The notes beneath the pieces were generated by a model. The model searched no databases and was not told the origin of the DNA. It saw only the letters and a program-made list of their open reading frames with translations. The position numbers and the translations under genes were made by a program. A stretch of 64,000 nucleotides of DNA from Candidatus Epulonipiscioides saccharophilum (GTDB taxonomy: Bacteria; Bacillota; Clostridia; Lachnospirales; Cellulosilyticaceae), in the NCBI GenBank assembly GCA_002007295.1, contig LNZM01000099.1, forward strand, positions 1-64,000. Reading direction: 5' to 3'. Of this stretch, positions 13,832 through 38,115 are shown piece after piece; the stretch's first letter is position 1; each line of letters opens with the position of its first letter.

Positions 13832-14632
13832 ATGAGTCAAGTGATAGTAGTGACATCGGGAAAAGGTGGGGTAGGAAAAACTACAAGCACCGCAAATATA
13901 GGCACCGCTCTTAGTATGTTGGGCAAAAAAGTAGTGTTAGTAGATGGTGATACAGGACTTAGAAACTTAGATGTTGTTATGGGTCTAGAAAATAGAATAG
14001 TATATAATGTCGTCGATGTGATAGAAGGAAAATGTAGAATAAGACAAGCACTTATAGCAGACAAAAGGTTTAAAGATTTGTACTTATTACCCACAGCACA
14101 AACCAGAGAAAAAGATGCAGTAACACCAGAACAAATGAAAAAATTATGTGAAGAATTAAGAGAGGAATTTGAGATTGTTATAGTGGACTGTCCAGCCGGA
14201 ATAGAACAAGGATTTAAAAATGCTATCGCCGCTGCCGATAAGGCCATAGTAATCACAACACCAGAGGTTTCTGCTATTAGAGATGCGGATAGAATAATAG
14301 GGTTATTAGGAGCTAATGGAATAAAAGATATTAATTTAGTAATAAATAGATTAAGAAAAAAAATGGTCGATAAAGGCGAAATGATGGACGTCGACGCTGT
14401 AACCGAGATCTTGGCTATAGATCTTATTGGCGTGGTACCAGATGATGAGGCAATTGTAATAACAACTAATAAAGGAGAGCCGGCTGTAGGTAAAAACAAC
14501 TCTATAGCAGGAGAAGCTTTTATGAATATTGCTAATCGATTAATAGGTAATGACGTTCCATTTTTAGACTTATCAAAAGAGATTTCACTTAAAAGTAAAA
14601 TTAGAAAGTTATTTGGGTTTGGTGTATTCTAA
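13832..14632 (+). CDS. minD: septum site-determining protein MinD
   Basis: VIVVTSGKGGVGKTTSTANIGTAL deviant Walker A; C-terminal amphipathic helix region. Confidence 0.95.
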   Translation: MSQVIVVTSGKGGVGKTTSTANIGTALSMLGKKVVLVDGDTGLRNLDVVMGLENRIVYNVVDVIEGKCRIRQALIADKRFKDLYLLPTAQTREKDAVTPEQMKKLCEELREEFEIVIVDCPAGIEQGFKNAIAAADKAIVITTPEVSAIRDADRIIGLLGANGIKDINLVINRLRKKMVDKGEMMDVDAVTEILAIDLIGVVPDDEAIVITTNKGEPAVGKNNSIAGEAFMNIANRLIGNDVPFLDLSKEISLKSKIRKLFGFGVF

Positions 14633-14656
14633 GACAATAGAATGGAGTGAAAAAAA

Positions 14657-14926
14657 GTGGATTTTAGTCAGTTGTTTAAAAGAAAAGCTCAAGCAGGAAA
14701 TGTTGCTAAAGATAGATTAAAGCTTTTATTGATCCATGATAGAATAAATTGCTCATCTGCTTTGATGGATATGATGAAAGCTGATATTGTTGCTGTTATA
14801 TCAAAATATATGGAGATTGATGCCGACGAATTAAATATTCAACTACTAACTATTCCCAGCGATGAATATTCAGAGAAAGTTTCTATGCTTTCTGCTAACA
14901 TACCTGTACAAAGATTAAAGATTTAA
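14657..14926 (+). CDS. minE: cell division topological specificity factor MinE
   Basis: AKDRLKLLLIHDR motif; follows minD. Confidence 0.93.
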   Translation: MDFSQLFKRKAQAGNVAKDRLKLLLIHDRINCSSALMDMMKADIVAVISKYMEIDADELNIQLLTIPSDEYSEKVSMLSANIPVQRLKI

Positions 14927-20307: not shown

Positions 20308-20939
20308 CTTGCAAAATAAAAAATAACATGTCATAATAAGGAAAACTTTTGTCAAGGAATGAATAAATGAGAAAGAAATATGAAATTGTATCAGGGACAG
20401 TTAAAAAAATTGTCCAAAATAATAAATCCATCATAGAATTAACCTAAGAAAATAAAAGAGAAGTAATTTACGGTCCGGATGTATACTTTGGTCAAAAGGT
20501 CGAAGCTTTAGTAAAACGAAAGAGAAAAGGCAACTGGTTAGGTGAAATAAGATCCATCCTGGAAAACGCACCAAACTATGTACCCGCTAAATGTAAAAGT
20601 GCTCAAATATGCAGTGGATGTACCTTACAAAATAAAAAATAACATGTCATAATAAGGAAAACTTTTGTCGAGGAATGAATAAATGAGAAAGAAATATGAA
20701 ATTATACCAGGGACAGTTAAAAAAATCGTCCAAAATAATAAATCCATCATAGAACTAACCGAAGAAAATAAAAGAGAAGTAACTTGTGGCCCGGATGCAT
20801 ACGTTGGCCAAAAGGTCGAAGTTTTAGTAAAACGTAAACGAAAAGGCAACTGGTTAGGTGAAATAAGATCCGTCCTAGAAAACGCACCAAACTATGTACC
20901 CGCTAAATGTAAAAGTGCCCAAATATGTGGCGGTTGCAC
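20308..20939 (+). repeat. 316-bp tandem duplication (20308-20623 and 20624-20939) of the upstream region plus 5' end of rlmD
   Basis: ATGAGAAAGAAATATGAAATT at 20367 and 20683; copies start at CTTGCAAAATA (20308) and CTTACAAAATA (20624), with CTTGCAAAATA again at 20940. Confidence 0.94.
20367..20640 (+). pseudogene. truncated 5' copy of rlmD-like methyltransferase gene (in-frame TAA)
   Basis: MRKKYEIVSGTVKKIVQNNKSIIEL-T-stop...; the coding frame corresponds to the downstream intact gene. Confidence 0.9.
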
Positions 20940-22044
20940 CTTGCAAAATATTTCTTACGAAGATCAATTAAAAAGAAAACTCGGTATCGTAGCCTTAACT
21001 CTAAATATAGAAAATGACTTAGAGCCGAAAAAGATCATCCCATCACCCACTTGTTTCCACTATAGAAATAAAATGGAGTATACTTTTGGTGATGAAAAAA
21101 AGGATGGGCCGTTAACTTTGGGCCTTCATAGAAAAAATAGAACTTATGATATTATAACAGCCGATGACTGCCAAATCGTACATGAAGATTTTAATATCGT
21201 ATTAAGAGAAACTTTGAAATTTTTTGCCGAAAAAGAATTGCCTTATTATAATAAAAAAACTCATAAAGGCTTTTTAAAATTTTTAATAGTACGCCGTTCA
21301 GAAGCTTTTGGCAACCTGTTAGTCAATATTGTAACCACATCTCAAGAACAATATGACTTTTCCGAATACACTAAAATATTACTAGAATCAGAAGCCAATA
21401 TAACCGGAATTTTAAATACTATAAGCGACAGCATTTCGGATGCCGTAAAACCGGATAAAACCACTTTGTTGCATGGAGAAGACTTTATATATGAAGAAAT
21501 TTTAGGCCTTAAATTTAAGATATCACCCTTTTCATTTTTCCAAACTAATCCGAAAGGAGCAGAACTGCTATATAAAAATGCACTGGATCTATTATCGGAT
21601 TTAGAAGATAAAATAGTGTTCGATTTATATTCCGGAACCGGTTCTATAACTCAAATTATGGCCTTAAAAGCTAAGCAAGTGTACGGCATAGAATTGGTCG
21701 ATGAAGCCGTAATAGCCGCACGAGAAAATGCTGCATTGAATGGCTTGGATAATTGTGAATTTATTTCCGGTGATGTGTTGAGTGAAATAAATCAAATAAG
21801 CCATATAAATCCAGATATCATAGTTTTAGATCCGCCTAGAAACGGCGTAGGAGAAAAAGCTTTAAGCAAAATTGTTAATTTTGGCGCTAAAGAAATTTTG
21901 TATATTTCCTGTAAAGCATCTTCCTTAGCAAGAGATATAGATGTTTTAAAGGATAGTGGTTATAAATTAGAAAAAATTTTTTGCCTAGATATGTTCCCCC
22001 AAACCGTTCATGTCGAGACTGTAGCATTATTTGTAAAAATATAA
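20683..22044 (+). CDS. rlmD: 23S rRNA (uracil-C5)-methyltransferase RlmD/RumA family
   Basis: TRAM domain, CKSAQICGGCTLQ Fe-S motif, FDLYSGTGSI, VLDPPRNG, YISCKASSLARD. Confidence 0.92.
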   Translation: MRKKYEIIPGTVKKIVQNNKSIIELTEENKREVTCGPDAYVGQKVEVLVKRKRKGNWLGEIRSVLENAPNYVPAKCKSAQICGGCTLQNISYEDQLKRKLGIVALTLNIENDLEPKKIIPSPTCFHYRNKMEYTFGDEKKDGPLTLGLHRKNRTYDIITADDCQIVHEDFNIVLRETLKFFAEKELPYYNKKTHKGFLKFLIVRRSEAFGNLLVNIVTTSQEQYDFSEYTKILLESEANITGILNTISDSISDAVKPDKTTLLHGEDFIYEEILGLKFKISPFSFFQTNPKGAELLYKNALDLLSDLEDKIVFDLYSGTGSITQIMALKAKQVYGIELVDEAVIAARENAALNGLDNCEFISGDVLSEINQISHINPDIIVLDPPRNGVGEKALSKIVNFGAKEILYISCKASSLARDIDVLKDSGYKLEKIFCLDMFPQTVHVETVALFVKI

Positions 22045-22155
22045 TATAAGGATGATATTATAGAATAATATATTCCCTCAAATTTTCATGTCGAGTGTGT
22101 TGAGTTGATGCTAAAAGTTGATAAGTAAAAGCTGAAAAACTTATAATATAGTTAT

Positions 22156-22262: not shown

Positions 22263-22983
22263 ATGACAAAAAAAAGAAGAGTATTATCACTATTTAGCGG
22301 ATGTGGAGGAATGGATATTGGATTTGAAGGTGGATTTAGATGTTTGAAGCGTTCAGTCAATAGAGTAATATGCACAAAGAGTGGATAAAAGAAGATTTAG
22401 GTCATTAGATAACTCTCAAGGATACTTCATTTGAAACTGTATTTGCAAATGATATAAGACCAGATGCAAAATCAACCTGGGTGACTTATTTTGAAAAAAA
22501 TATATAGATGCAAATGAACGTTATCATTTAGAAAGCATCGTAGACCTTGTTAAAAAATCTCAAGCTGGAGAAAATGTATTTCCTGATAATATAGATGTAG
22601 TAACTGGTGGTTTTCCTTGCCAAGATTTTTTAATTGCTGGTAAAAGGAAAGGCTTTAATTCAGACAAAAGTCATAATGGAAATATACTTGAAGTTGATGA
22701 ATCCGCGATAGAAAATAGAGGCCAATTATATATATGGATGAAAGAAGTAATTAGCATTGTTCAACCTAAAATTTTTATTGCAGAAAACGTAAAAGGTTTG
22801 ACAACTTTGAAATACGTGAAAAAAATAATAGAACATGATTTTGCTAATGCAGCAGACGGCGGATACTTAGTAATTCCAGCCAAAGTATTGAATGCCGCAA
22901 ATTATGGAGTACCTCAATCAAGGGAACGTGTTATTTTTTATGGCTTCAGAAAAAATTCTTTGAATAGTATAGACTTTTTTTGA
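22263..22983 (+). pseudogene. DNA (cytosine-5-)-methyltransferase, frameshifted, nonsense-interrupted and C-terminally truncated
   Basis: Motif I LSLFSGCGGMDIGFEGGF; then SFETVFANDIRPDAKSTW in another segment; PC motif [11 protein letters not shown] (AENVKGL); [14 protein letters not shown] broken several times. Confidence 0.9.
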
Positions 22984-23123
22984 TTTATATGATATTATAA
23001 AAAATAATCAAAATTATACAAGTTACAAAATTAAAATAAATGAAAATATATTAAAAGGTAAAACAAGATCAGAAATTTATTAGGTAGTAAGATGTGAATT
23101 GATGAATATTGAAAGGAGTAAAT

Positions 23124-24248
23124 ATGAAAAAAACAGCGTTAGAGAAAGCAATTAATGCAAAAACAAAAAAAATAAAAACGGAAAGTTTTGATTTATCGTT
23201 TAATGAAATTTTAGATATGTATAACAATAAGGAGTTAATTATTGCACCTGATTATCAAAGAATGTTTCGTTGGTCAGTTGAGAAACAATCAATGTTAATA
23301 GAGTCCTTAATACTTGATATGCCTTTGCCTCCAATTTTTGTGATTGAAACTGAAGATGGTATTTATGAATTGATAGATGGATTACAAAGAATATCTACAT
23401 ACTTACATTTTAGATATGATGATATTGGATGTGAGTTAAAAAAAGAATTATGTAATAATATAGAAGAAGCTTTAGAATTAGATGGTTGCGATATAATTGA
23501 GGAACTAAATGGTAACACTTTTAGTAAGTTATCTGATCGATATCAACGTGCACTAAAAAGACATTTTATACGTATCGAAGTTCTAAAAAGCGAAACTGAT
23601 CGAGAGATTAGATATCATATGTTTAAAAGATTAAATACAGGCGGAGAACTTTTAAGTGACCAGGAAGTTAGAGATTGTACGATAAGAATATTAGGAGATA
23701 AGTTTAATAACTTTATTAAACAGTGTAGTAAAGATGAAAACTTCATTAATTCGATTTATCCTGTACAAGAAGAGTATGCTAAAACTAAAAAGGATCAAGA
23801 ATTAGTATTAAGATATTTTGCATTAAGAAATAACTTGAAAAATTACAATAAAAACTTGAATGGTTTTCTGACTGGATATATGGAGGAAGTTACGAAAGAC
23901 GATGGTTGTTTTAATTATGATAAGGAAGAAGATATATTTAAAAGTGTATTCAAATATATAAATGAAATGTATGGGATAAATGCGTTCTCTAGTTTAATAA
24001 ATGAGGATAAAAACAAATACCGCAAGGATATGGTGATGTATGTGTTTGATAGTCTCACATGTGGTTTGGCTAAGCATATAGATGAGATAGATAAAAAAGA
24101 TAAAATAAAACTGAAGAAAGAGTTAACTGAATTACGCAGAACAAAGTTCGCAAATAAAACCGGTGGCGGGAAGGGGAACACTAAGGAGCGAATTGAAATG
24201 GTTGAAAAGGTAATCAAGGAGTGTCCCTTAATTGATAGAACTGAGTAA
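23124..24248 (+). CDS. DUF262 domain-containing protein (GmrS-like / ParB-like NTPase fold), no HNH domain
   Basis: IAPDYQRMFRWSVEKQSMLIESLILDMPLPPIFV...YELIDGLQRISTY (DGxQR motif). Confidence 0.88.
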   Translation: MKKTALEKAINAKTKKIKTESFDLSFNEILDMYNNKELIIAPDYQRMFRWSVEKQSMLIESLILDMPLPPIFVIETEDGIYELIDGLQRISTYLHFRYDDIGCELKKELCNNIEEALELDGCDIIEELNGNTFSKLSDRYQRALKRHFIRIEVLKSETDREIRYHMFKRLNTGGELLSDQEVRDCTIRILGDKFNNFIKQCSKDENFINSIYPVQEEYAKTKKDQELVLRYFALRNNLKNYNKNLNGFLTGYMEEVTKDDGCFNYDKEEDIFKSVFKYINEMYGINAFSSLINEDKNKYRKDMVMYVFDSLTCGLAKHIDEIDKKDKIKLKKELTELRRTKFANKTGGGKGNTKERIEMVEKVIKECPLIDRTE

Positions 24249-24363
24249 GAGTATCTTGTTATAGAGAATAGATTAATGTTACGTTTTTTATAATATGTTT
24301 TGTATAACTTTTTATAAGATAAATAATTGAAAATTACAAAATTATCTGATATAATAGATAAAA

Positions 24364-24424
24364 TGTTTTACCTCGACATGTTTTTTTTCAATCATGTCGA
24401 GATTGTAGCATTATTTATAAAAAA
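24364..24424 (+). repeat. diverged second copy of the rlmD 3' end, just upstream of the AKR gene
   Basis: gttttacctcgacatgtttttt..tcaatcatgtcgagattgtagcattatttataaaaa matches rlmD end tttgcctagatatgttccccc..ccgttcatgtcgagactgtagcattatttgtaaaaa (about 21980-22040). Confidence 0.85.
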
Positions 24425-24470
24425 TAGATGAGTTTTATTAATGAAAAAATATAAATATAAGGATGATAAT

Positions 24471-25436
24471 ATGGTTTACGGCAATATTACTTCATTAAAA
24501 GATAAAAAAATTTCTAGGATAGTATTAGGCAGATCCGATCTAGATGGCCGAGATAAAGTTGCTAGCTTTAAATTTTTGGACGAAATGTATTCTTTGGGTA
24601 TAAATACTTTCGACACCGCAGCTATTTATCAAAACTACTCCGAGGCTGTTATTACCGAATGGATTGCCGAACGTGGAATACATGATGATGCGGTTATTCT
24701 AAGTAAATGTGGCCATTTTAATTACTGGAGAAATAGAGTTCACGACTTTGATATTAAGGCTGATATAGCAGATTTTTTAGCGAAGCCAGGTGCCGATTAT
24801 GTAGATATTTATATGTTGCACAGAGACGACGAAACTGTAGCCGTCTCTGAAATAATCAACTGTTTCAATGAACTGTTGGACAAGGGCTATATCAAAACTT
24901 TTGGCGCTTCAAACTGGTCCTTTGAACGATTATTAGAAGCAAATGAGTACGCCTACAAAAAAGGCCTAACTCCTTTTACTAGCATAAGTCCGCAATTTAG
25001 CTTGGCAGAACAACAAGGCGACCTATGGCCAGGTACTCTCTCTATTACAGGTCCAGACCATCTAAATGAAAGACTATATTATGAAAAAGTTCAAATGCCC
25101 ATATTCTCCTATTCTAGCATTGCTCGCGGTTTCTTATCCGGTAGATTCTCTTCCGCCGACGATCCGAATAAAGCCAAAAATATTTTAGATGCAGATATTT
25201 ATAGAGCCTTTATGTGCAATTCAAACTTAGAGCGCCTTAAACGTGTCGAACACTTGGCGGCCCAAAAAGAAGTTTCTGTAGCAACTCTTTCTTTGGCCTG
25301 GGTCCTAAATCAACCTTTCAACTTGTTCGCTATCATTTCCTCTAAATCCAAAGAGCGAATGACTGAAAATATCCAAGCCTTAAATGTAAGCTTATCAGCA
25401 GAAGAGTTAAAATGGCTAAATTTGGAATCTGAATAA
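24471..25436 (+). CDS. aldo/keto reductase family oxidoreductase
   Basis: ISRIVLGRSDLDG, GINTFDTAAIYQNYSEAVI, DYVDIYMLHRDDE, KTFGASNW; ORF track starts at 24441 but ATG 24471 has SD-like aaggatgat. Confidence 0.9.
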   Translation: MVYGNITSLKDKKISRIVLGRSDLDGRDKVASFKFLDEMYSLGINTFDTAAIYQNYSEAVITEWIAERGIHDDAVILSKCGHFNYWRNRVHDFDIKADIADFLAKPGADYVDIYMLHRDDETVAVSEIINCFNELLDKGYIKTFGASNWSFERLLEANEYAYKKGLTPFTSISPQFSLAEQQGDLWPGTLSITGPDHLNERLYYEKVQMPIFSYSSIARGFLSGRFSSADDPNKAKNILDADIYRAFMCNSNLERLKRVEHLAAQKEVSVATLSLAWVLNQPFNLFAIISSKSKERMTENIQALNVSLSAEELKWLNLESE

Positions 25437-25465
25437 ATTTTAGCAATAAAATGTGTATCAATTTA

Positions 25466-25504
25466 AAAAGCAACCCTTGAGAAAAAAATTTTGGGTTGCT
25501 TTTC
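25466..25504 (+). terminator. intrinsic terminator
   Basis: AAAAGCAACCC...GGGTTGCTTTTC; similar hairpins follow both FMN riboswitch copies. Confidence 0.85.
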
Positions 25505-25525
25505 ATATTTTATATACAAATTCTC

Positions 25526-25554
25526 TTGACAAAAATAAATGATTAGCGTAATAT
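25526..25554 (+). promoter_or_regulatory. sigma-A-like promoter of marR-MATE
   Basis: TTGACA (25526-25531) - 17 nt - TAATAT (25549-25554). Confidence 0.7.
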
Positions 25555-25620
25555 AGTTAGTATAAAATAGTTAGTATAAAATAGTTAGTATAAAATAGTT
25601 AGTGTAAAATAGTTAGGTAA
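25551..25620 (+). repeat. 14-bp tandem repeat array (aaatagttagtata), about 5 copies
   Basis: atatagttagtataaaatagttagtataaaatagttagtataaaatagttagtgtaaaatagttag. Confidence 0.9.
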
Positions 25621-25658
25621 ATACACTTAATTCAAAATAAAATTAAAGGAGCAAAAAG

Positions 25659-25739
25659 ATGAATGGAAAACTAATAAAAGCACTACATAAAATAACACAC
25701 AATACAGCGTTCTATGAATTTAAGCGTCTTTATTTTTAA
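25659..25739 (+). pseudogene. truncated 5' copy of the marR gene (26 codons then stop)
   Basis: atgaatggaaaactaataaaagcactacataaaataacacac... matches the start of the intact gene at 25861. Confidence 0.9.
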
Positions 25740-25860
25740 CCAAAATAAATTATTAGCATAAAAATAAATGATTAGCATAATATAGTTAGTGTAAAGTAGT
25801 TAGTTAAAAATAGTTAATTAAATATACTTAATTCAAAATACAATTAAAAGGAGCAAAAAG

Positions 25861-26319
25861 ATGAATGGAAAACTAATAAAAGCAATGCACAAAATAAGAC
25901 ACGATACAGCGTTCTATGAACTTAAGCGTCTTTATGTATTTGATAAAAAAAGTCGTCTTTCATACCATGATACGCTTTATCTGAATATCATTGAGTCACA
26001 TCCCAATAAGTATACTTCTTCACAAATTGCCGATTTATTAAAAATAACTCGTCCGTCTGTAACAGAGAAGATTAACCAGCTATGCAAAAAAGGCTACATT
26101 TTAAGAACACAAAGTGAAACTGATAAACGTCTATTTTATCTATCAATAAATCCTGATAGCCCAAAAGATTATGAAATCACTGCAGGTTATGAAAAGGAAA
26201 TGGAGCGTGAAATTTTAGAGAAATTTGGCGAAGAAAAAGTTAATGTATTCTGTGAAGTGATTGAATTTATGTCCGAATTGATGTTTGAAGATTTTAAGGA
26301 GGAGAAAGAAAATGAATAG
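25861..26319 (+). CDS. MarR family transcriptional regulator
   Basis: Winged-helix YTSSQIADLLKITRPSVTEKINQLCKKGYILRTQSETDKRLFYLSI; next to MATE. Confidence 0.9.
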   Translation: MNGKLIKAMHKIRHDTAFYELKRLYVFDKKSRLSYHDTLYLNIIESHPNKYTSSQIADLLKITRPSVTEKINQLCKKGYILRTQSETDKRLFYLSINPDSPKDYEITAGYEKEMEREILEKFGEEKVNVFCEVIEFMSELMFEDFKEEKENE

Positions 26320-27646
26320 TCCATTAGCAAAAAACTTTAATATGATAGAGCTTTTAAAATACACAATGCCGAGTATGATTATGATGATATTCATGTCCAC
26401 TTACTCGATTATTGATGGTGTTTTTGTATCAACCTTTGTTGGAGAAAGTGCCTTAGCAGCAGTCAATTTAGTTATGCCTCTGATCGGTATAGTAATGGCC
26501 GTTGGCCTTATGTTCGCCACAGGAGGAAATGCAGTAATCGCAAAATTCTTAGGACAAGGAAATATGAGAGAAGCGCAGGAATTTTTAACAGTAATCTATA
26601 TTATAGGAGGAATACTGGGCGGTGTGCTTACAGCTATAGTTTTAATTTTTCCGGATGAAATTCTTAATTTATTAAATGTAAGCGATAGCCTATATTCCCT
26701 TACGAAAGATTATATGCTTAGCTTGACTGCTTTTTTTATTCCTCTCTTTTTTATGATTTTTATTCAATCATTTATGGTAACGGCCGGTCATCCGATGTTT
26801 GGTCTTATGCTTAGTTTAGTCGGTGGGATGACAAATATTATTCTTGATTATATCCTTATCTCACCCGATGTGCTTAATATAGGAATTACAGGTGCAGGTA
26901 TTGCCACAGGTATTGGGTATGCTATTCCAGGAATAATTGGTTTTTTATATTTTATTTTTAACAGAAAATGTGTCCTTCATTTTGTAAATCCGAAGCTTAA
27001 TTTAAAGACTCTTGCTCAAAGCATATTTAATGGCTCATCGGAACTTGTAGGCTCCCTTGCTATATCAATTACAACTCTTATGTTTAATTTTATTTTAATG
27101 AGTATGGTAGGCGATTCCGGAGTTGCAGCAATCAGCGTAATTTTATATATACAACTATTTCAAAATGCAATCTATATAGGCTATACTATAGGCGTATCCT
27201 CAATTATTGCATTTAAATATGGAGAAAAAAATCACAATGGATTACATAAAGTCATAACGCAAAGTTTTAAGATTATTTCTGTAGCCTCTACTCTGGTAGT
27301 AGCATTAACTTTTATTTTTTCTAATGAAGCCGTCGGTATTTTTATTGAAAAAGAAAGTGCAACTTTTGAAATGACAAAAAATGGACTTCTATTATTTCTT
27401 CCTGCCTACTTGTTTATGGGCTTTAATATCTTCTTTTCTGCAATGTTTACATCTCTATCCAATGGAAAAGTGTCTGCCATAATTTCGGTTTTAAGAAGTT
27501 TAGTGTTTATAGTAATTGCACTTCTTATATTGCCACAGATATTTAAACTAAATGGAGTATGGCTTGCTGTGCCTGTGGCAGAGTTTTTAGCAATTATAGT
27601 GTCTATTTACTTTTATAAAAAGAATAAATCACGTTATCAATATTAA
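26312..27646 (+). CDS. MATE family efflux transporter
   Basis: 12-TM, MIMMIFMSTYSIIDGVFVSTFVGESALAAVNLVMP; AVIAKFLGQGNMREAQ. Confidence 0.92.
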   Translation: MNSPLAKNFNMIELLKYTMPSMIMMIFMSTYSIIDGVFVSTFVGESALAAVNLVMPLIGIVMAVGLMFATGGNAVIAKFLGQGNMREAQEFLTVIYIIGGILGGVLTAIVLIFPDEILNLLNVSDSLYSLTKDYMLSLTAFFIPLFFMIFIQSFMVTAGHPMFGLMLSLVGGMTNIILDYILISPDVLNIGITGAGIATGIGYAIPGIIGFLYFIFNRKCVLHFVNPKLNLKTLAQSIFNGSSELVGSLAISITTLMFNFILMSMVGDSGVAAISVILYIQLFQNAIYIGYTIGVSSIIAFKYGEKNHNGLHKVITQSFKIISVASTLVVALTFIFSNEAVGIFIEKESATFEMTKNGLLLFLPAYLFMGFNIFFSAMFTSLSNGKVSAIISVLRSLVFIVIALLILPQIFKLNGVWLAVPVAEFLAIIVSIYFYKKNKSRYQY

Positions 27647-27702
27647 ATTGCAATAGAATTAGCTGATACTTTATTTTGATTTTACATACTTCAAAGAAAA
27701 AA

Positions 27703-27720
27703 TGCGGTCATATGACCGCA
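27703..27720. promoter_or_regulatory. perfect 18-bp palindrome, candidate operator for the TA module
   Basis: TGCGGTCATATGACCGCA ends 6 nt before the -35 box (TTGACA 27727-27732) of the toxin-antitoxin promoter. Confidence 0.6.
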
Positions 27721-27726
27721 AAAGTA

Positions 27727-27754
27727 TTGACATTTATCATCGTTTGAATATAAT
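27727..27754 (+). promoter_or_regulatory. promoter of toxin-antitoxin operon
   Basis: TTGACA - 16 nt - TATAAT. Confidence 0.75.
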
Positions 27755-27776
27755 ATAAATATATGGAAGTGACAAA

Positions 27777-28121
27777 TTGGTCAATCATTCTAATGCATCA
27801 GATATTATAATATTTCTGGAAAGAGCAAAGATATTAATATCTATGGGTAAATATGATTTTGTCCCCAGAAGAAAAAATCTGCAATCTTTAGCACAACATG
27901 GTCTTACACCTATCGATGCAAAAAATGAAATTCTAGACCTGGTCGTTGAAGATTATTATAAAGGACCTAAACTGGATTTGGATCCTAATCGAGCAGGAGA
28001 TATCTGGGAATTCAAAAAAGATATTGACGGAATAACTTTTTATGTAAAAATAAAAATAGTTATCGAGAATGGCAATGAAATTTTAAAGTGCATTGGATTC
28101 CATGAAGATGATTTTGCATAA
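27777..28121 (+). CDS. MqsR-like (RelE/BrnT-fold-like) toxin
   Basis: 114 aa, DYYKGPKLDLDPNRAGDIWEFKKDIDGITFYVKIKIVI...LKCIGFHEDDF; immediately upstream of a YgiT-type Zn finger/HTH antitoxin. TTG start. Confidence 0.75.
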   Translation: MVNHSNASDIIIFLERAKILISMGKYDFVPRRKNLQSLAQHGLTPIDAKNEILDLVVEDYYKGPKLDLDPNRAGDIWEFKKDIDGITFYVKIKIVIENGNEILKCIGFHEDDFA

Positions 28122-28140
28122 CTTATAGGAGGTTGATTTC

Positions 28141-29145
28141 ATGAAAAAATATTGTGAAGAATGTGAAAGAGAAATTGAAGCAAAAATAGTGATTAAAAGA
28201 GAAAATTATGAAGTTTGTGGTGAATCAATCGAAGTTGATGCTAGAATATTAACTTGTGAAGAATGTGGAGAAGAGTTTTATTGCGAAGAGCTTGATAATG
28301 AAACCTTGGTTACTGCTTATAATGAATATAGAAGAAGACATAAATTATTAATGCCCGAAGATATAAAAAAAATTAGAGAAAAATATGGATTAAGCCAGAG
28401 AAGTTTTGCAAAGCTTCTTAATTGGGGAGATAAAACTATTTGTAGATACGAAAATGGATCAATCCAAGATAAAGCACATAATAGTATTCTTTTCTTTTTA
28501 CAAGAGCCTGAGAATATGAAAACTTATATAAATGAAAATGAAATTTTATTAGAGGATAAGCAAAAGAATAAACTGATGCAGACAATTGAAAAATTAGAGC
28601 AAGATGACGAATATCGTGTAAAAAATAAATTTTTTAATATGATTTTTTCGAAAACACCATCAGAAGAAAATGGATTCAAGGCTTTTGATTATGAAAAAGT
28701 ATGTGCAATGGTTATCTTTTTTGCACGGAAAAGCAATCAATTATTAAAAACAAAACTTTTAAAGTTACTAAATTACTCAGATATGATTTTTTATAAAGAG
28801 AATGGAACTTCTATATCAGGAAGTCGGTATATTCATTTCCCATATGGGCCAGTAATGGAAAATTTCGATTTTATTTTTGGTAAGATGGCCAGTGATAATA
28901 TTGTACGAATAGATATTGTATATGAAGGAGTATATGAGAAACATCAGGCTGTGCCGGAAACACAAATGCCCGAAGGTATCTTATCTGACTCTGAGCTAGA
29001 GGTTCTTGAACGGATATACAATAAATTTGCGTATTTTTGTTCGGTGGAAATATCAGATTACTCACATGCAGAAAAAGGGTACTCCTCAACAAAACAAGGA
29101 GAGATAATTTCATACACTTATGCTAAGAATATAAATTTGGATTAG
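28141..29145 (+). CDS. antitoxin with YgiT-type zinc finger, Xre HTH and C-terminal Panacea (DUF4065/SocA-like) domain
   Basis: CEECEREIEAK...CEECGEEFYCEE; IKKIREKYGLSQRSFAKLLNWGDKTICRYENG; KLLKLLNYSDMIFYKENGTSISGSRYIHFPYGPVMENF typical of Panacea domain. Confidence 0.85.
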   Translation: MKKYCEECEREIEAKIVIKRENYEVCGESIEVDARILTCEECGEEFYCEELDNETLVTAYNEYRRRHKLLMPEDIKKIREKYGLSQRSFAKLLNWGDKTICRYENGSIQDKAHNSILFFLQEPENMKTYINENEILLEDKQKNKLMQTIEKLEQDDEYRVKNKFFNMIFSKTPSEENGFKAFDYEKVCAMVIFFARKSNQLLKTKLLKLLNYSDMIFYKENGTSISGSRYIHFPYGPVMENFDFIFGKMASDNIVRIDIVYEGVYEKHQAVPETQMPEGILSDSELEVLERIYNKFAYFCSVEISDYSHAEKGYSSTKQGEIISYTYAKNINLD

Positions 29146-29267
29146 AGTCTAAAGTAATTGATGAATGTAGTGGTAAAGGATTTGGAGAAAAAGATTTGTA
29201 AGTAGCATTTCCTGAAAGATTAGTTTTTAATTTCCCAGGTCCATTATCCACTTTATATCCTCACTTT

Positions 29268-29468
29268 CAAATTGAAATAACAACACTGTAAACAACGATT
29301 TCATTTCAATTTGGCAACTGAAATTGAAATAACAACAATGTAAATAACGATTTCATTTCAATTTGGCAACTGAACTTGAAATAACAATAGTGTAAATAAC
29401 GATTTCATTTCAATTTGGCAACTGAACTTGAAATAACAATACTGTAAACAATGATTTTATTTTAAATA
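29268..29468 (+). repeat. 52-bp tandem repeat, about 3.8 copies
   Basis: attgaaataacaacactgtaaacaacgatttcatttcaatttggcaactgaa starts at 29271, 29323, 29375 and 29427; each unit has ATTGAAAT...ATTTCAAT inverted arms. Confidence 0.93.
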
Positions 29469-29518
29469 CATCCGATATTTTAAACCTTATACTAAAATAA
29501 TAAAAGGGCATATAATAT

Positions 29519-29650
29519 GGTAGAACAGCTAGGCTATCTATGGCCAGGTACTATTTCTATTACAGATTCAGATTATTTGAAAGAAAGACAAGTGAATGAT
29601 CGAAAATATTCAAGTCTTAAATTTAAGGTTATCAGTAGAAAAATCACATT
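29519..29650 (+). pseudogene. internally deleted fragment of the aldo/keto reductase gene
   Basis: gtagaacagctaggctatctatggccaggtactatttctattacag and gatcgaaaatattcaagtcttaaatttaaggttatcagtagaa match AKR segments about 25010-25070 and about 25365-25405. Confidence 0.85.
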
Positions 29651-29780
29651 ATAAATATTAAATTACAGATAGAGTTAACTGAAACTTTAGTTGTATTCTA
29701 CATATCAACAAATGTTTTTGCAAAGATATTGACTTTTTCCTTTGCTTATAATATGATATTCAGTAATAAAATAATAATTC

Positions 29781-29842
29781 AATTCTTCGTGGCGAGATGT
29801 AAATCCTCACCAGCGGTTATAGTCTGAATGGAGAAGAATAGG
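29781..29842 (+). pseudogene. vestigial FMN riboswitch (central about 53 nt deleted)
   Basis: aattcttcgtggcgagatgtaaatcctcaccagcggttatagtctgaatggagaagaata vs the intact copy at 37238-37350. Confidence 0.9.
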
Positions 29843-29894
29843 ATCTTGTTGTACAATTTTTTTCATCTTTTATGTGTGCCAATTTATTAAGCAA

Positions 29895-29932
29895 CCCTGT
29901 AGAAAGAAAGAATTAGGGTTGTTTTTTTATGT
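29895..29932 (+). terminator. terminator (copy of the FMN riboswitch expression platform)
   Basis: AGCAACCCtgtagaaagaaagaattaGGGTTGTTTTTTT. Confidence 0.75.
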
Positions 29933-30105
29933 TTTAAATACAAGCTAAAATTTGGGATGTTTAGATTCAACCTAAAAATTTTATCCGGTATTTAAAATAT
30001 AGAAGGAGTGGTAAATTTGAAAACATATAAAGAAGCTTCGAAAATTTTGTATAATGTTTTAGAGTTATTATTTGTTGATTAAAATATAAAAATGGAGAAA
30101 TTAAA

Positions 30106-31650
30106 ATGTCAAGTGCAACACAAAGAGCAGAATTACAATCACAGATTTGGAAGATAGCAGACGAGGTCCGTGGGTCAATTGATGGATGGGACTTTAAACA
30201 ATATGTATTAGGTACACTATTTTATCGTTTTATTAGTGAGAACTTTTCGAATTACATGGAAGGTGACGACGATATTAACTATGCAGCCCTAGATGATAGT
30301 CTTATCACAAAAGAAATTAAAGAAGATGCAATCAGAACAAAAGGATATTTCATATATCCAAGCCAGTTGTTTGTGAACATTGCAAAAAATGCAAATGACA
30401 ATGAAAGCTTAAATACAGATTTAGCAGGAATATTTCAAACAATCGAAAGCTCGGCCAATGGCTATCCGTCAGAATTAGACATAAAAGGATTATTCGCTGA
30501 TTTTGATACAACAAGTAATAGACTTGGAAATACAGTGAAAGAGAAAAATACACGTTTAGCAGCTGTGATTAAAGGTGTAGAAGGAATTAATTTTGGTAGA
30601 TTCGAAGATAATAAAATAGATTTATTTGGTGATGCTTATGAATTTTTGATTTCTAATTATGCGGCTAATGCCGGAAAGTCTGGAGGAGAATTTTTTACAC
30701 CGCAAAGTGTATCTAAATTAATTGCAAAGCTTGCAACCCATGGACAATCAACAATTAATAAAATTTATGATCCAGCAGCAGGGTCTGGATCTTTACTTTT
30801 ACAAGCTAAAAAACAATTCGATGATCATATTATTGAAGATGGCTTCTTTGGACAAGAAATCAACCATACTACGTATAATCTTGCTCGAATGAATATGTTT
30901 TTGCACAATGTTAATTATGATAAATTTAATATAGCATTAGGTAATACTTTATTGGATCCTAGATTTGGAGATAACAAACCGTTTGATGCTATTGTATCCA
31001 ATCCACCATATTCGATAAAGTGGATTGGTAGCGATGATCCAACATTAATTAATGATGAGCGTTTTGCGCCGGCAGGAGTACTTGCGCCAAAGTCAAAAGC
31101 AGATTTTGCTTTTATACTTCATACACTTAGCTATTTATCCGAAAAGGGTAGAGCTGCGATTGTTTGCTTTCCGGGAATATTTTATCGTGGTGGTGCTGAG
31201 CAAAAAATTAGAAAATATTTAATTGATAATAATTTTGTAGAAACTGTTATCGCACTTGCACCTAATTTATTCTTTGGAACATCTATTGCAGTTAATATCT
31301 TAGTGCTTTCAAAACATAAAACAGATACTAAAACACAGTTTATAGATGCAAGTGGTACAGATTATTTTAAAAAAGAAACAAATAATAGTGTTCTAACACC
31401 AGAACATATCGAGGCTATTCTTGAGTTATTTGCCAAGAAAGACGATGTAGAACATGTGGCGATATCGGTCGATAACGATAAGATAGCAACAAAAAATTAT
31501 AATCTGTCCGTAAGCTCTTATGTAGAAGCAAAAGACACTAGAGAAGTGATTGATATAGTAGAAGTAAATGCTAAAATCAAAAATACTGTGGCGAATATAG
31601 ATAGACTACGTAATGAGATAGATAAAATTGTTTCTGAGATTGAGGGGTAG
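30106..31650 (+). CDS. hsdM: type I restriction-modification system methyltransferase subunit HsdM
   Basis: [32 protein letters not shown] (NPPY), N-terminal HsdM domain. Confidence 0.95.
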
Positions 31651-31652
31651 TT

Positions 31653-32666
31653 ATGAAAAATAATTTTGATTTTTTAATATATCGTTCAGTTACTGAAGAC
31701 ATATCTGTCAATGCACTTGTAAAAGATGAAACAATTTGGTTAACACAAAAAGCAATGGGGGAGTTATTTGCTTGCAGTACTGATAATATATCTCTACATT
31801 TGAAAAATATATTTAATGAGGGGGAATTAGATGAAAATTCAACTACCGAGGAAATCTCGGTAGTTCAACAAGAAGGCAATAGACAAGTAAAACGAACTCC
31901 AAAGTTCTATAACCTTGACGCTATTATTTCCGTTGGCTATCGTGTGAATTCTGCTCGTGCCACACAATTTAGAATTTGGGCAACATCTATTTTAAAAGAA
32001 TACATGATAAAAGGGTTCATCGTTGATGATGAAAGATTAAAACAAGGTAAAACTCTTTTTGGTAAAGATTATTTTAGAGAGCTTTTAGAAACAGTTCGAT
32101 CTATTCGAGCTAGTGAGAGAAGAATTTGGGAGCAAATAACGGATATTTTTGCAGAATGTAGTATTGATTATGATGTAAAATCACAGGTTACAAAAGATTT
32201 TTATGCTATGGTCCAAAATAAATTTCACTACGCTATAACAGGAAAAACAGGTGCAGAAATTAGATATGACTTAGCTGATAGAAATAGTGCGAATATGGGA
32301 CTTACAACTTGGAAAAATGCACCTGATGGCAGAATTCTAAAATCAGATACCATGATAGCAAAAAACTACTTATCAGAAAAAGAAATAAAAAAACTTGAAA
32401 GAACGGTATCGAGCTATTTTGATTATGTAGAAGATTTAATTGAATATGAAAATACTTTTACTATGGCAGAATTTGCAAATAGTATTGATGAATTTTTAGC
32501 TTTTAGAAAATATAAAATTTTAGAGGGTAAAGGTAATATTTCAAAAAAACAAGCTGATGAAAAAGTAACTTTGGAATATAATGAGTTTAACAAAACACAA
32601 AAGATAGAATCAGACTTCAACAAAATGACAAAAAAACTACTTGGAAGAGGGAAAGAAAATGAGTAA
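31653..32666 (+). CDS. RhuM-family protein embedded in the hsd operon
   Basis: VKDETIWLTQKAMGELFACSTDNISLHLKNIFNEGEL...NLDAIISVGYRVNSARATQFRIWATSILKEYMIKGF. Confidence 0.9.
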   Translation: MKNNFDFLIYRSVTEDISVNALVKDETIWLTQKAMGELFACSTDNISLHLKNIFNEGELDENSTTEEISVVQQEGNRQVKRTPKFYNLDAIISVGYRVNSARATQFRIWATSILKEYMIKGFIVDDERLKQGKTLFGKDYFRELLETVRSIRASERRIWEQITDIFAECSIDYDVKSQVTKDFYAMVQNKFHYAITGKTGAEIRYDLADRNSANMGLTTWKNAPDGRILKSDTMIAKNYLSEKEIKKLERTVSSYFDYVEDLIEYENTFTMAEFANSIDEFLAFRKYKILEGKGNISKKQADEKVTLEYNEFNKTQKIESDFNKMTKKLLGRGKENE

Positions 32667-33894
32667 ATTAGATGAATTGATAAAAGAACTTTGCCCGGAT
32701 AGAGTAGAATATAAAAGCGTTGGAGAGATTGCGACACTTGTCAGAGGTAACGGACTTCCAAAATCAGACTTCACTGAAACAGGTATAGGGTGTATTCATT
32801 ATGGACAAATTTACACATACTATGGAACGACAACAAATAAAACTATATCTTGTGTAGCAGAAGAAACAGCACAAAAATTAAAGCAGGTAAATACTAATGA
32901 TATAATAATAACTAATACAAGTGAGAATGTTGAAGATGTTTGTAAGGCGATAGTTTGGGAAGGGTTAGAAAGTATAGTTACCGGTGGTCACGCAACAATA
33001 ATAAAAGGGTTACCAGTACCTAAATTTTTCGTATATTATACTCAAACAAGCGAATTTTTTAAGGTAAAAAAGAAACTAGCAACAGGTACTAAAGTTATAG
33101 ATGTTTCAGCAAATAATATTGCAAAAATACCTATTCCCATTCCACCACTACCTGTGCAAGAGGAAATTGTTCGTATTTTGGATAATTTCACAGAGCTTAC
33201 AGCAGAGCTTACGGCAGAGCTTACGGCAGAGCTTAAAACAAGAAAGAAACAGTATGAGTATTATAGGGAATATCTTTTTAATATAGATACTGCAAATCTC
33301 TTATGTTTGGGCAATGAAAGTGTTGGTAAGTTTACAAGAGGTAGAGAATTACAGAAAAAGGATTTTACCGAAACAGGCGTTGGGTGTATTCATTACGGCC
33401 AAATCTATACCTATTATGGTACTTATACTAATAAAACCAAAACCTTTGTTTCGAACGAGTTTGCCCAAAAGGCTCGTAGAGCTAAATATGGCGATTTAGT
33501 AATAGCAACAACAAGCGAAAACGATGAAGATGTTTGTAAAGCAGTAGCATGGTTAGGAGATAAAGAAATCGCTATTAGTAGTGATGCTTGTTTTTACACA
33601 CACAACTTATATCCCAAATATGTTGCATATTTCTTTCAGACAGAGCAGTTTCAAAAACAAAAAAGGCCATATATCACAGGTACAAAAGTAAGACGTGTTA
33701 ATATCGATAACTTAGCTAAAATAAAGATACCTGTACCAACTTTTATGGAGCAACAACGCATTGTTGATATTCTTGATCGTTTTGAAACCATTTGTAATGA
33801 TATTTCAAATGGTTTGCCTGCTGAAATAAAAGCAAGACAAAAACAATATGAATATTACAGGGATAAGCTTTTAACTTTTAAGAATATTAACTAA
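32659..33894 (+). CDS. hsdS: type I restriction-modification specificity subunit HsdS (two TRDs)
   Basis: Two homologous TRDs (G-IGCIHYGQIYTYYGT) and conserved regions IPIPPLPVQEEIVRILDNFTELTAELTAELTAEL...KKQYEYYREYLF. Confidence 0.94.
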   Translation: MSKLDELIKELCPDRVEYKSVGEIATLVRGNGLPKSDFTETGIGCIHYGQIYTYYGTTTNKTISCVAEETAQKLKQVNTNDIIITNTSENVEDVCKAIVWEGLESIVTGGHATIIKGLPVPKFFVYYTQTSEFFKVKKKLATGTKVIDVSANNIAKIPIPIPPLPVQEEIVRILDNFTELTAELTAELTAELKTRKKQYEYYREYLFNIDTANLLCLGNESVGKFTRGRELQKKDFTETGVGCIHYGQIYTYYGTYTNKTKTFVSNEFAQKARRAKYGDLVIATTSENDEDVCKAVAWLGDKEIAISSDACFYTHNLYPKYVAYFFQTEQFQKQKRPYITGTKVRRVNIDNLAKIKIPVPTFMEQQRIVDILDRFETICNDISNGLPAEIKARQKQYEYYRDKLLTFKNIN

Positions 33895-33984
33895 CGATGA
33901 AGCATAAATATGGGTAAGTATTTAAATAAAATTGTCTAGAGAACACTTAACAGATAATTATATATTTTGGAAGGAATCACAACA

Positions 33985-36900
33985 ATGTATGAGGATAGTA
34001 CAATTGCGGAATCAAAGAATTTTATAGTGCTTGATAAATACGAAAAGTATTCACGAAAAGCTACTGCAGTTCATCAAACAGAGGCATCACTTGAAAAAGA
34101 ATTTATACAAGATTTAATAAATCAAGGCTATGAGTATTTACCCGATTTAACTACACCAGAGGCAATGCTTAAGAATGTGCGTAAAGAGCTGCAAAATTTT
34201 AATGATGTTGTGTTTAGTGATACAGAGTGGACAAGGTTTTGTCAGGAGTACTTAGATAAACCAAGCGATAATCATATTGATAAAATGCGCAAAATCCACA
34301 ATGACTATATTTATGATTTTGTTTTTGATGATGGTCATATTAAAAATATTTACCTTGTGAACAAAGACGATATAACAAAGAATAAAGTGCAGGTTATTTC
34401 ACAATTTAAAATAAAAGGTGTTCACTCCAATCGCTATGATGTTACGATTTTGATGAATGGTCTTCCGCTTGTACAGGTAGAATTGAAAAAACGTGGTATT
34501 GCGATTAGAGAAGCATTTAATCAAGTAAATAGATATAGTAAAGAGAGTTTTAACAGCGAAAATTCTCTTTATAAGTATTTGCAAATTTGTGTTATATCTA
34601 ATGGCACGGATAGTCGCTATTTTGCCAATACAATTAAGCGTGATAAAAACAGCTTTGACTTTACAATGAACTGGGCAAAGTCGGATAATTCTTTAATTAA
34701 AGACCTAAAAGATTTTACAGCAACTTTCTTTCAAAAGGATACGATATTAAAGGTACTTTTACATTATTCGGTTTTTGATTCTAGTGATAATTTACTAATT
34801 ATGCGACCTTATCAAATTGCAGCAACGGAAAGAATTTTGTGGAAAATAACAAGCTCTTATCATGCAAAAAAATGGAAGACTACTGAAAGTGGTGGTTATA
34901 TTTGGCATACAACGGGTTCGGGAAAAACGTTAACTAGTTTTAAAGCTGCACGTTTAGCTACGGATCTTAAGTTTATAGATAAGGTATTTTTTGTAGTAGA
35001 CAGAAAAGATTTGGATTATCAAACGATGAAAGAATATCAACGATTTTCACCAGATAGTGTAAATGGTTCTGAAAGTACAGCAGGATTAAAGAGTAATATT
35101 GAAAAAGATGATAATAAGATTATTGTTACCACGATTCAGAAGTTGAATAATCTTATCAAAGGCGAAGCGGATTTGTCTGTTTATAACAAGCAGGTCGTAT
35201 TTATTTTTGATGAAGCGCACCGTTCGCAATTTGGTGAAGCACAAAAGAATATCAATAAGAGGTTTAAAAAGTATTATCAATTTGGGTTTACTGGTACGCC
35301 GATATTTCCGGAGAATGCGTTAGGAGCAGAAACGACAGCGTCTGTATTTGGTAGTGAGTTACATTCTTATGTTATTACGGATGCTATTAGAGATGAAAAG
35401 GTTTTAAAATTCAAAGTTGACTATAATGATGTGCGCCCTAAGTTTAAATCAATAGAAATGGAACAGGATGATAAAAAGTTGTCTGCAGCAGAAACCAGAG
35501 AAGTGCTTCTTCATCCAGAAAGAATTAAAGCGATATCGAAGTATATTTTAAATAATTTTAGATTAAAAACGCATCGTTGCCATATTGGAGCAAAAGGTTT
35601 CAATGCAATGTTTGCTGTTAGTAATGTTAAGGCAGCAAAGCTATATTATGAATGCTTAAATAATTTGCAAAGAGATAGTGATAAGCCTTTAAAAATAGCA
35701 ACAATATTTTCTTTTGCTACCAATGAAGAGCAAAGTGCTATAGGAGAAATACTGGATGAAACATTTGAAACAACAGTATTGGACCGTAGTGCAAAAGAGT
35801 TTCTAAGTTTGGCTATTAATAATTATAATAAGATGTTTAAAACTAACTTTGGTGTAGATAGTAAAGAGTTTCAAAATTATTATAGAGACCTTGCTAATCG
35901 TGTAAAAAAACAAGAGATTGACCTTTTAATTGTGGTTGGTATGTTTTTAACAGGATTTGATGCACCAACATTAAATACTTTATTTGTGGATAAAAATCTT
36001 AGGTTCCATGGCTTGATGCAGGCATTTTCAAGAACAAATCGTATATATAATTCTACCAAAGCTTGTGGTAATATCGTTACCTTTAGAGATTTGGAACAAT
36101 CAACAATTGATGCGATAACACTTTTTGGAGATAAAAATACCAAGAATGTTGTACTTGAAAAGAGTTATAAAGAATATATGGAAGGTTTTACGGATATATC
36201 TACAGGGGAAGTGCGTAGTGGCTATATAGATGTAATAAAAGAGTTGGACCAAAGATTTCCTGACATTGAAAATATTATGACTGAGAAGGATAAGAAGGAG
36301 TTTGTCAAATTATTCGGTGAGTATCTACGTATAGAAAATGTGCTGCAAAATTATGATGAGTTTACTAAATTAAAAGCATTACAATCTATTGATATAGAAG
36401 ATTCAGAGACACTAGAAGAATTCAAGAAGGCTCATTATGTAACGGATAAAGATATCAAAGCTATGCAAGATATTAGGGTTCCAGATGAAAGAGCCATTCA
36501 GGATTATTGTTCTACATATAATGATATTCGCGATTGGTTACGTCATGAAAAATCTGGAAAAGATAAGGAAGATTCAAATATTGATTGGGATGACACTGTC
36601 TTCGAAGTTGAGTTGTTAAAATCACAGGAAATCAACCTGGACTATATTTTGGAACTTATTTTTGAAAAAAATAAGGCTGTTAAAGATAAAGCAATATTGG
36701 TTGAGGAAGTTCGGCGTATAATTCGTTCGAGTACTGGAAATCGTGCAAAAGAGAGCCTGATTGTAGATTTTATGAATCAAACTGATTTGGATCAAATTCA
36801 AGATAAGGCAAGTATCATAGATGTATTCTTTATCTTTGCTCAAAAAGAACAGAAAAGAGAAGTAGAAGAGCTAATTCAGGACGAGAAACTAAACGAGGCA

Positions 36901-37074
36901 GCAGCCAAGCGCTATATATTTGCTTCATTAAAAAGAGAGTATGCAAGTGAAAATGGAACGGCATTAAATGAAGTTTTGCCAAAGATGAGTCCACTTAATC
37001 CTAAATATTTGACTAAAAAACAAACAGTGTTTAGAAAAATATCTGCTTTGATAGAGAAGTTTAAAGGTGTTTGA
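33985..37074 (+). CDS. hsdR: type I restriction endonuclease subunit HsdR
   Basis: [39 protein letters not shown]-terminal HsdR region; ATG 33985 with SD ggaagg. Confidence 0.94.
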
Positions 37075-37113
37075 TGGAAAGTTATAAAACAGAGTTGAAA
37101 GGAAGGGCTTTAT

Positions 37114-37170
37114 AAGCTTATCAGTATAAGAAATTTTTAAAAGGTTAAAATTGGAATCTGTGTAAATTTT
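37114..37170 (+). repeat. third copy of the AKR gene 3' end, upstream of the ribU promoter
   Basis: ataagcttatcagtataagaaatttttaaaaggttaaaattggaatctgtgtaaat matches AKR end gtaagcttatcagcagaagagttaaaatggctaaatttggaatctgaataaat. Confidence 0.85.
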
Positions 37171-37183
37171 TTTGAAAAATATA

Positions 37184-37212
37184 TTGACTTTTTCCATCGT
37201 TTGTAATATAAT
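37184..37212 (+). promoter_or_regulatory. promoter of the FMN riboswitch-ribU transcript
   Basis: TTGACT - 17 nt - TATAAT. Confidence 0.75.
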
Positions 37213-37237
37213 AATTAGTAATAAAATAGTAATTCAA

Positions 37238-37350
37238 TTCTTCGGGGCGAGGCGTAAATCCTCACCGGCGGTTATAGTCCGTGAATGCTTAGGCATTGAT
37301 TTGGTGAAATTCCAAAACCGACAGTTATAGTCTGGATGAGAGAAGAATAG
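37238..37350 (+). ncRNA. FMN riboswitch (RFN element)
   Basis: ttcttcggggcgaggcgtaaatcctcaccggcggttatagtccgtgaa...gatttggtgaaattccaaaaccgacagttatagtctggatgagagaagaa matches the RFN consensus; upstream of ribU. Confidence 0.96.
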
Positions 37351-37388
37351 GATCTTGTTGTGCAATTTTTTTCATGTGCATCAATTTA

Positions 37389-37427
37389 CTAGCAACCCTT
37401 TAGGAAAGAATTCGGGTTGCTTTTTTA
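37389..37427 (+). terminator. riboswitch expression-platform terminator
   Basis: AGCAACCCtttaggaaagaattcGGGTTGCTTTTTT. Confidence 0.85.
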
Positions 37428-37515
37428 TATTTTACATACAAGCTAAAATTCTGGATGTGTAGGTCTAGGATAGAATTTTTAACCGGTTATCTAAAATATA
37501 GAAGGAGTGGTAAAT

Positions 37516-38115
37516 TTGAAAACGAGAACACATGATTTGATCAAAATTGCTTTGTTGAGTGCTATAGCTGCGGTATTGATGCAGTTAGGGATTAAGCTAC
37601 CTATGTTATTTCCGAGTTTTTTGGAAGTAGATTTTAGTGAAGTGCCTGCATTAATTGGTATTTTAACAATAAGTCCTATGTCCGGTATTATTATTATAAC
37701 CTTAAAAAATTTATTGAAGTTAGTTATGTTTGGTACATCGACGGCCTTTGTTGGAGAATTAGCAAATTGGGTTGTTTCAATAGCTTATGTATTGCCAATT
37801 ATGTATTTGGTACGTAAAGATAAATCTTTTCAAACAGTAGTCATTGGAATATTTCTTGGAATAATATCAATGTCAATAATTGGTGGAGTTATGAATTATT
37901 ATATTATGCTTCCTTTTTATGCTAAGGCATTTATGCCAATGGATGTTATTATTGGTATGGGTCATGCTATTATTCCGGCTATTACAGATAAATTTACGCT
38001 TGTAGTTTGGTCCATTATTCCGTTTAATATATTTAAAGGTATTATAGTATCTATTACAAGCGTAGTGATTTTAAAATCTCTATATCCAGTACTTAAAAAG
38101 TTAAAAATAGCCTAA
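37516..38115 (+). CDS. ribU: ECF transporter S component, riboflavin-specific RibU-like
   Basis: LLSAIAAVLMQLGIKLPMLFPSFLEVDFSEVPALIGILTISPMSGI; preceded by FMN riboswitch; TTG start with SD gaaggag. Confidence 0.92.
   Translation: MKTRTHDLIKIALLSAIAAVLMQLGIKLPMLFPSFLEVDFSEVPALIGILTISPMSGIIIITLKNLLKLVMFGTSTAFVGELANWVVSIAYVLPIMYLVRKDKSFQTVVIGIFLGIISMSIIGGVMNYYIMLPFYAKAFMPMDVIIGMGHAIIPAITDKFTLVVWSIIPFNIFKGIIVSITSVVILKSLYPVLKKLKIA

Follow-up and report, generated by a model that had tools for sequence, protein, structure and literature searches.

Insertions of restriction-modification (R-M) systems with long, variable duplications of their target are described for Helicobacter pylori (Nobusato et al. 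2000, Gene 259:99, as covered in PMC1643837 and PMC3031569). The passages on target duplication in a review place their length in the order of 100 bp, and the same review considers type I systems less mobile (PMC3874152). Two further known arrangements invite comparison here, namely defence islands and the FMN riboswitch (RFN element, RF00050) upstream of ribU.

Epulopiscium is a giant fish-gut bacterium. Our window, a stretch of 64,000 nucleotides from Candidatus Epulonipiscioides saccharophilum, lies on contig C99 (79,310 bp) of a 3.19-Mb draft genome in 166 contigs (G000); the closest named relative, judged by RibU, is Epulopiscium sp. SCG-B11 (67%). In the interval between rlmD and ribU, the window contains a type I R-M operon for which both testable features of a known R-M insertion with long target duplication are found: direct repeats of the target flank the operon (29624-30024 and 37113-37523), and the target is single and without insert in a different species of the same genus (G004). 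As in the described cases, the R-M system lacks a transposase, and the direct repeats on either side of it are host sequence of which a relative has only one copy. It differs from them in that the repeat measures about 400 bp, against the order of 100 bp in the review passages (PMC3874152), includes a riboswitch leader, is diverged and partly decayed, and has similar counterparts several times in one interval. The locus resembles defence islands in that R-M, GmrSD-type and antitoxin genes and a C5-methylase remnant cluster in one variable interval, but no integrase or transposase was identified and the module borders are copies of neighbouring host genes. We consider an R-M insertion with long target duplication, a process repeated in this interval and followed by decay, the probable origin of the arrangement (probability roughly 0.6).

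The repeats and the operon between them

The operon and its surroundings comprise the following features:

29518-29640, forward strand: left repeat (copy B), AKR fragments matching AKR 25003-25074 and about 25354-25400 (z=13.2)
29637-29710, forward strand: copy B, end of MATE (last codons) and downstream segment (z=13.6)
29710-30024, forward strand: copy B, ribU leader with promoter-like site, shortened FMN aptamer, linker, terminator, post-terminator segment, RBS and TTGAAAAC start
30025-30063, forward strand: 39-nt stretch separating copy B from the R-M homology
30064-37088, forward strand: accessory module 4, the R-M operon (homology to G001:C40)
30106-31650, forward strand: hsdM (TIGR00497)
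31653-32666, forward strand: rhuM (PF13310)
32641-33894, forward strand: hsdS (PF01420, twice)
33967-37074, forward strand: hsdR (TIGR00348)
37113-37170, forward strand: right repeat (copy C), AKR 3' tail, a pseudogene fragment (79% to AKR 25387-25441; z=11.6)
37164-37523, forward strand: copy C, intact ribU leader with FMN riboswitch (37234-37351; RF00050, 109.4 bits), terminator and RBS
37516-38115, forward strand: ribU, gene of a RibU-like ECF transporter substrate-binding subunit, with the FMN riboswitch directly upstream

A first-pass annotation had described a mosaic scar upstream of the operon, and all its parts are present in the claimed order. Copy B (29518-30024) is a shortened host sequence that runs from an AKR fragment through the AKR and MATE tails into the ribU leader as far as TTGAAAAC. 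AKR 25003-25074 recurs at 29518-29589 with 81% identity, the near-tail of AKR (25354-25428) at 29591-29663, where copy B follows AKR to about 29637, and the MATE tail with its downstream sequence (27601-27799) at 29614-29788 (z=12 against dinucleotide-sampled sequence). Each repeat piece with a z-score beat all of 500 dinucleotide-sampled controls, and the leader itself was assessed by BLAST.

A pairwise alignment of the kind that the annotation had proposed, here of 29624-30024 with 37113-37523, yielded 307 identities, 48 mismatches and 102 gap positions in several indels (within-window BLAST E=4e-55). Identity over the roughly 400 bp is about 72% with gaps counted and 86.5% without, and the longest exact runs common to both copies are 32 and 22 nt. 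Because promoter, linker, terminator, post-terminator segment, RBS and start codon align too, the similarity extends beyond the riboswitch core, which excludes the possibility, raised in the annotation, that it is limited to that core. Downstream of hsdR the order from promoter to RBS is intact, as claimed, but since the AKR 3' tail belongs to the repeat, copy C begins at 37113 and not at 37184; likewise, the bracketing of the operon by direct repeats holds, whereas their length is about 400 bp instead of about 340 bp. That the genome is a draft of 166 contigs could suggest an artefact of assembly or amplification. Chimeric copies would however be near-identical, and B and C differ at 48 aligned positions and by several indels, so that we regard this explanation as very improbable.

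No further copies of the scar were found elsewhere in the genome, and within the window it occurs in only three places. The ORF of 21 codons that follows the copied start (TTG at 30017) has no homology to the ribU N-terminus (z=1.0), and a homology search with the 39 nt of 30025-30063 gave no significant match. The RibU-like gene, which matches an ECF permease family weakly and has an 80% identical orthologue in G004, is served by the intact copy C. Judging from the repeats, excision of the operon by homologous recombination between B and C is conceivable.

The operon contains intact type I hsdM, hsdS and hsdR genes (TIGR00497 and TIGR00348 above cut-off, PF01420 twice in HsdS). We found no transposase or integrase in the bracketed unit, where the ORFs of at least 80 aa on the coding strand (29145-37500) are hsdM, rhuM, hsdS and hsdR only. 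A related operon with homologous hsdM, hsdS and hsdR (hsdR 77%) exists in G001 (G001:C40) at a different site, after rplM-rpsI and before a serpin gene followed by uvrA. Its nucleotide homology is confined to window positions 30064-37088. The left repeat stops at 30024 and the right one starts at 37113; the cargo thus fills the space between the repeats, with borders 39 nt (left) and 24 nt (right) from them. The G001 operon in turn has a copy of the rpsI terminator on each side (43 nt, 86%, E=6.5e-6).

Some further observations concern the operons and rpsI. The rhuM-family gene, located between hsdM and hsdS in the window, is absent from the G001 operon, which has three hsdS-like stretches with common long repeats that may allow specificity switching (L040, L048; G001:C40). 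On G000:C118 (L061), the rpsI end F-S-K-R-stop is found again some 470 bp further on, with another codon for serine, and the two ends enclose what we recognized by eye as an ImmA/IrrE-like remnant; this is possibly a decayed integrative element at the rpsI 3' end.

Ancestral arrangement and the other modules of the interval

In G004, whose genome is a single 3.28-Mb contig, AKR (L007 12947-13987), the FMN riboswitch (14044-14161) and ribU (14256-14861) follow each other without cargo; the distance from the AKR stop to the ribU start is 275 bp, compared to 12,077 bp in the window. An AKR orthologue occurs only in these two genomes, beside ribU in G004 and within the ribU interval in G000. An ancestral order AKR-FMN riboswitch-ribU with no gene between is thereby shown in a relative, and the cargo of the window is derived. 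Searches for an intermediate ribU arrangement found none: in G012 (L010) the FMN riboswitch and ribU occur without AKR, AKR is also missing next to ribU in G013 (L042), no ribU match came from G001 or G003, and the ribU of G002 is on a 4-kb contig. An R-M-free copy of the locus from the same species was not found either.

A three-way alignment of the leaders has 40 columns unique to G004, against 16 unique to B and 10 to C. B and C therefore group as sisters, which makes the duplication lineage-specific and later than the split from G004. This bears on a Campbell-type integration, in which circular DNA carrying the R-M genes and an AKR-leader segment from a close relative would have entered by a single crossover. 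Such an event yields the same repeat-cargo-repeat order and accounts for the divergence of B and C (86.5% identity in aligned columns), yet with B and C as sisters only a very close relative could have been the donor, and the cargo ORFs include no replication or mobilisation gene; we hold it to be improbable.

Upstream of copy B, the interval contains the following features:

20308-20663, forward strand: truncated, stop-containing tandem duplicate of the rlmD 5' end, upstream of the intact gene (88.8% over 358 nt)
21962-22130, forward strand: rlmD 3' tail (to 22072), then a second, decayed tail copy (22068-22130; z=6.3)
22738-24248, forward strand: accessory module 1, a decayed dcm C5-methylase fragment (22738-22983) and a GmrSD-type gene (23109-24248) (PF00145, PF03235)
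24349-24453, forward strand: third rlmD tail copy, closing module 1 (81/103 identities to 21962-22072; z=12.1)
24441-25436, forward strand: intact AKR gene (PF00248; G004 orthologue 67% identity)
25451-25519, forward strand: leader remnant A, directly after AKR, with linker, terminator and ATACAA (58/67 identities to 37374-37441; z=8.7)
25526-27646, forward strand: accessory module 2, a duplicate of the marR 5' end, marR (25861-26319) and MATE (26285-27646)
27720-27791, forward strand: leader remnant D after MATE, promoter part only (z=6.0 to 37177-37241)
27777-29145, forward strand: accessory module 3, a small ORF (27777-28121) and an MqsA/SocA-like antitoxin gene (28141-29145; PF15731, PF13274, TIGR03830)
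29269-29465, forward strand: tandem array of about four 52-bp units, partly palindromic and without other copies in the genome

Leader copies in the window are thus more than a B/C pair. The remnants after AKR (A, 25451-25519) and after MATE (D, 27720-27791) are newly found here, as is the AKR tail that opens copy C. A, B and C have a post-terminator ATACAA segment in common that is absent from G004. D is the weakest of the remnants and could partly reflect promoter consensus; together with the MATE tail it scores z=12.1 against copy B. Modules 2 and 3 are placed between leader remnants, and module 1 is bracketed by the second and third copies of the rlmD tail. At the other end of rlmD, the intact gene carries the second copy of the duplicated 5' end (20624-20981), a duplication that includes the upstream region. 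Since copy B has the MATE tail, its source must already have had MATE next to the leader, which means that the MATE insertion preceded the duplication giving copy B. Rather than the product of a single event, the scar is best seen as one among several duplications of host sequence that go along with accessory modules between rlmD and ribU.

The small ORF of module 3 has no family match. The 5' end of marR and its promoter region are duplicated (25526-25935, 84%), with the upstream copy broken, and both copies carry 14-bp repeats containing TAGTTAGTATAAAA. The 52-bp array adjoins the antitoxin gene and could be an operator or hairpin array. Far upstream, window positions 400-484 match a group II intron domain in Rfam (63.1 bits).

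To set these duplications against their background, we counted local direct duplications of which one copy or both lie outside long ORFs. The density was 13.7 clusters per 100 kb in G000 with the window excluded and 9.4 in the window, compared to 1.7 in G004, 2.6 in G001 and 3.9 in G012; the same census found no clusters in dinucleotide-sampled sequence. Local noncoding duplications are thus 4-8 times denser in G000 than in the three relatives (sampled stretches, L062-L081 for G000), ratios that are approximate because ORFs were set mechanically (100 aa or more) and samples comprised 280-420 kb. Given how common such duplications are in G000, duplication and insertion may have been separate events, and mainly for this reason we do not hold more firmly that they were one. 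The AKR tail, leader and ribU start could have been duplicated in tandem first, the R-M genes later replacing the redundant ribU copy at the junction, and cargo-free duplications at rlmD and marR are in line with this. A later insertion would, however, more often have split a copy, whereas no more than 39 and 24 nt separate the R-M homology from the ends of the repeats, and the same bracket is seen at module 1 and at the G001 R-M operon. We therefore find this order of events doubtful, though it deserves consideration.

The FMN aptamer upstream of hsdM

GTTATAGTC occurs at two places in the aptamer of copy C, at a distance of about 53 nt. Copy B retains a single GTTATAGTC followed by the sequence that comes after the second repeat in C and has lost about 53 nt, as expected if one deletion between the two short repeats removed the middle of the aptamer. 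Rfam matches copy B at 29779-29842 with 28.6 bits (E=0.0012), below the gathering score of 66.2 that copy C passes with 109.4 bits, in agreement with the earlier description of a decayed FMN riboswitch upstream of the R-M operon. Copy C is an ordinary full-length member of the RF00050 elements found upstream of ribU; copy B, unlike these, is a decayed duplicate placed before an R-M operon.

The promoter-like site of copy B is kept (TTGACT-17-TATGAT, 29729-29757). The terminators have predicted folding energies of -13.0 kcal/mol in copy B and -11.8 kcal/mol in copy C; a scan for terminator-like structures found none in the copy B stretch because its loop limit was 8 nt and the actual loop is longer. 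Given these elements, transcription of hsdM may start at a promoter of the ribU type and run through a terminator that has lost its FMN sensing. Capture of the R-M genes under the riboswitch for a function, with riboflavin status controlling restriction, would fit the preservation of ribU leader promoter, terminator, RBS and start codon upstream of hsdM. Against it, the middle of the aptamer is gone (28.6 bits versus 66.2) and the terminator that still folds (-13.0 kcal/mol) fits attenuation without ligand sensing, leaving this idea hardly any credence. Riboflavin control of the R-M system is thus unlikely, and from the retained promoter-like site and strong terminator we infer that its transcription is not expected to respond to FMN. 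Among the ten best-ranked matches of a literature search, no publication linked an FMN riboswitch to type I R-M.

Proposed course of events and its meaning

Under our preferred reading of an insertion with long target duplication, the locus would have started as AKR, FMN riboswitch and ribU without intervening genes. In the window's lineage, insertion of the type I R-M operon would have brought with it a duplication of about 400 bp of host sequence, comprising the AKR/MATE tail, the ribU leader and the first ribU codons, and the operon now sits between the two leader copies. The downstream copy still serves ribU, while the upstream copy decayed; the alignment shows one deletion between GTTATAGTC repeats that took the middle of the aptamer and others that took most of AKR and MATE. 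The bracket of module 1 and the leader remnants at the MATE and antitoxin modules suggest that several modules entered the interval by the same route. This route was likely a homology-anchored capture of incoming DNA that re-joined upstream of its anchor and would thus have duplicated it. The 39 and 24 nt at the two junctions, which belong to neither the repeats nor the R-M homology, speak against this reading, as does the fact that a search of the locus identified neither an integration enzyme nor a donor molecule.

For Epulopiscium type B, a published proposal is recombination with DNA that lysing mother cells release, and several competence genes have been reported (PMC8245194), which makes homology-anchored capture plausible, though not shown. 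In this lineage, host gene tails and leaders might act as repeated landing sites where accessory modules without a recombinase are taken up by homology, accumulate and perhaps replace one another, a process that extreme polyploidy and the uptake of DNA from lysed mother cells would favour; we offer this as a speculation that is rather unlikely to hold in full. A riboswitch that is copied before an unrelated operon and then lost is a source of false annotations of 'riboswitch-regulated defence'. We regard the locus as a candidate for insertion with long target duplication that occurred serially in an Epulopiscium relative, in which the acquisition of an R-M system would be dated and oriented by its footprint, a duplicated and decaying riboswitch leader.
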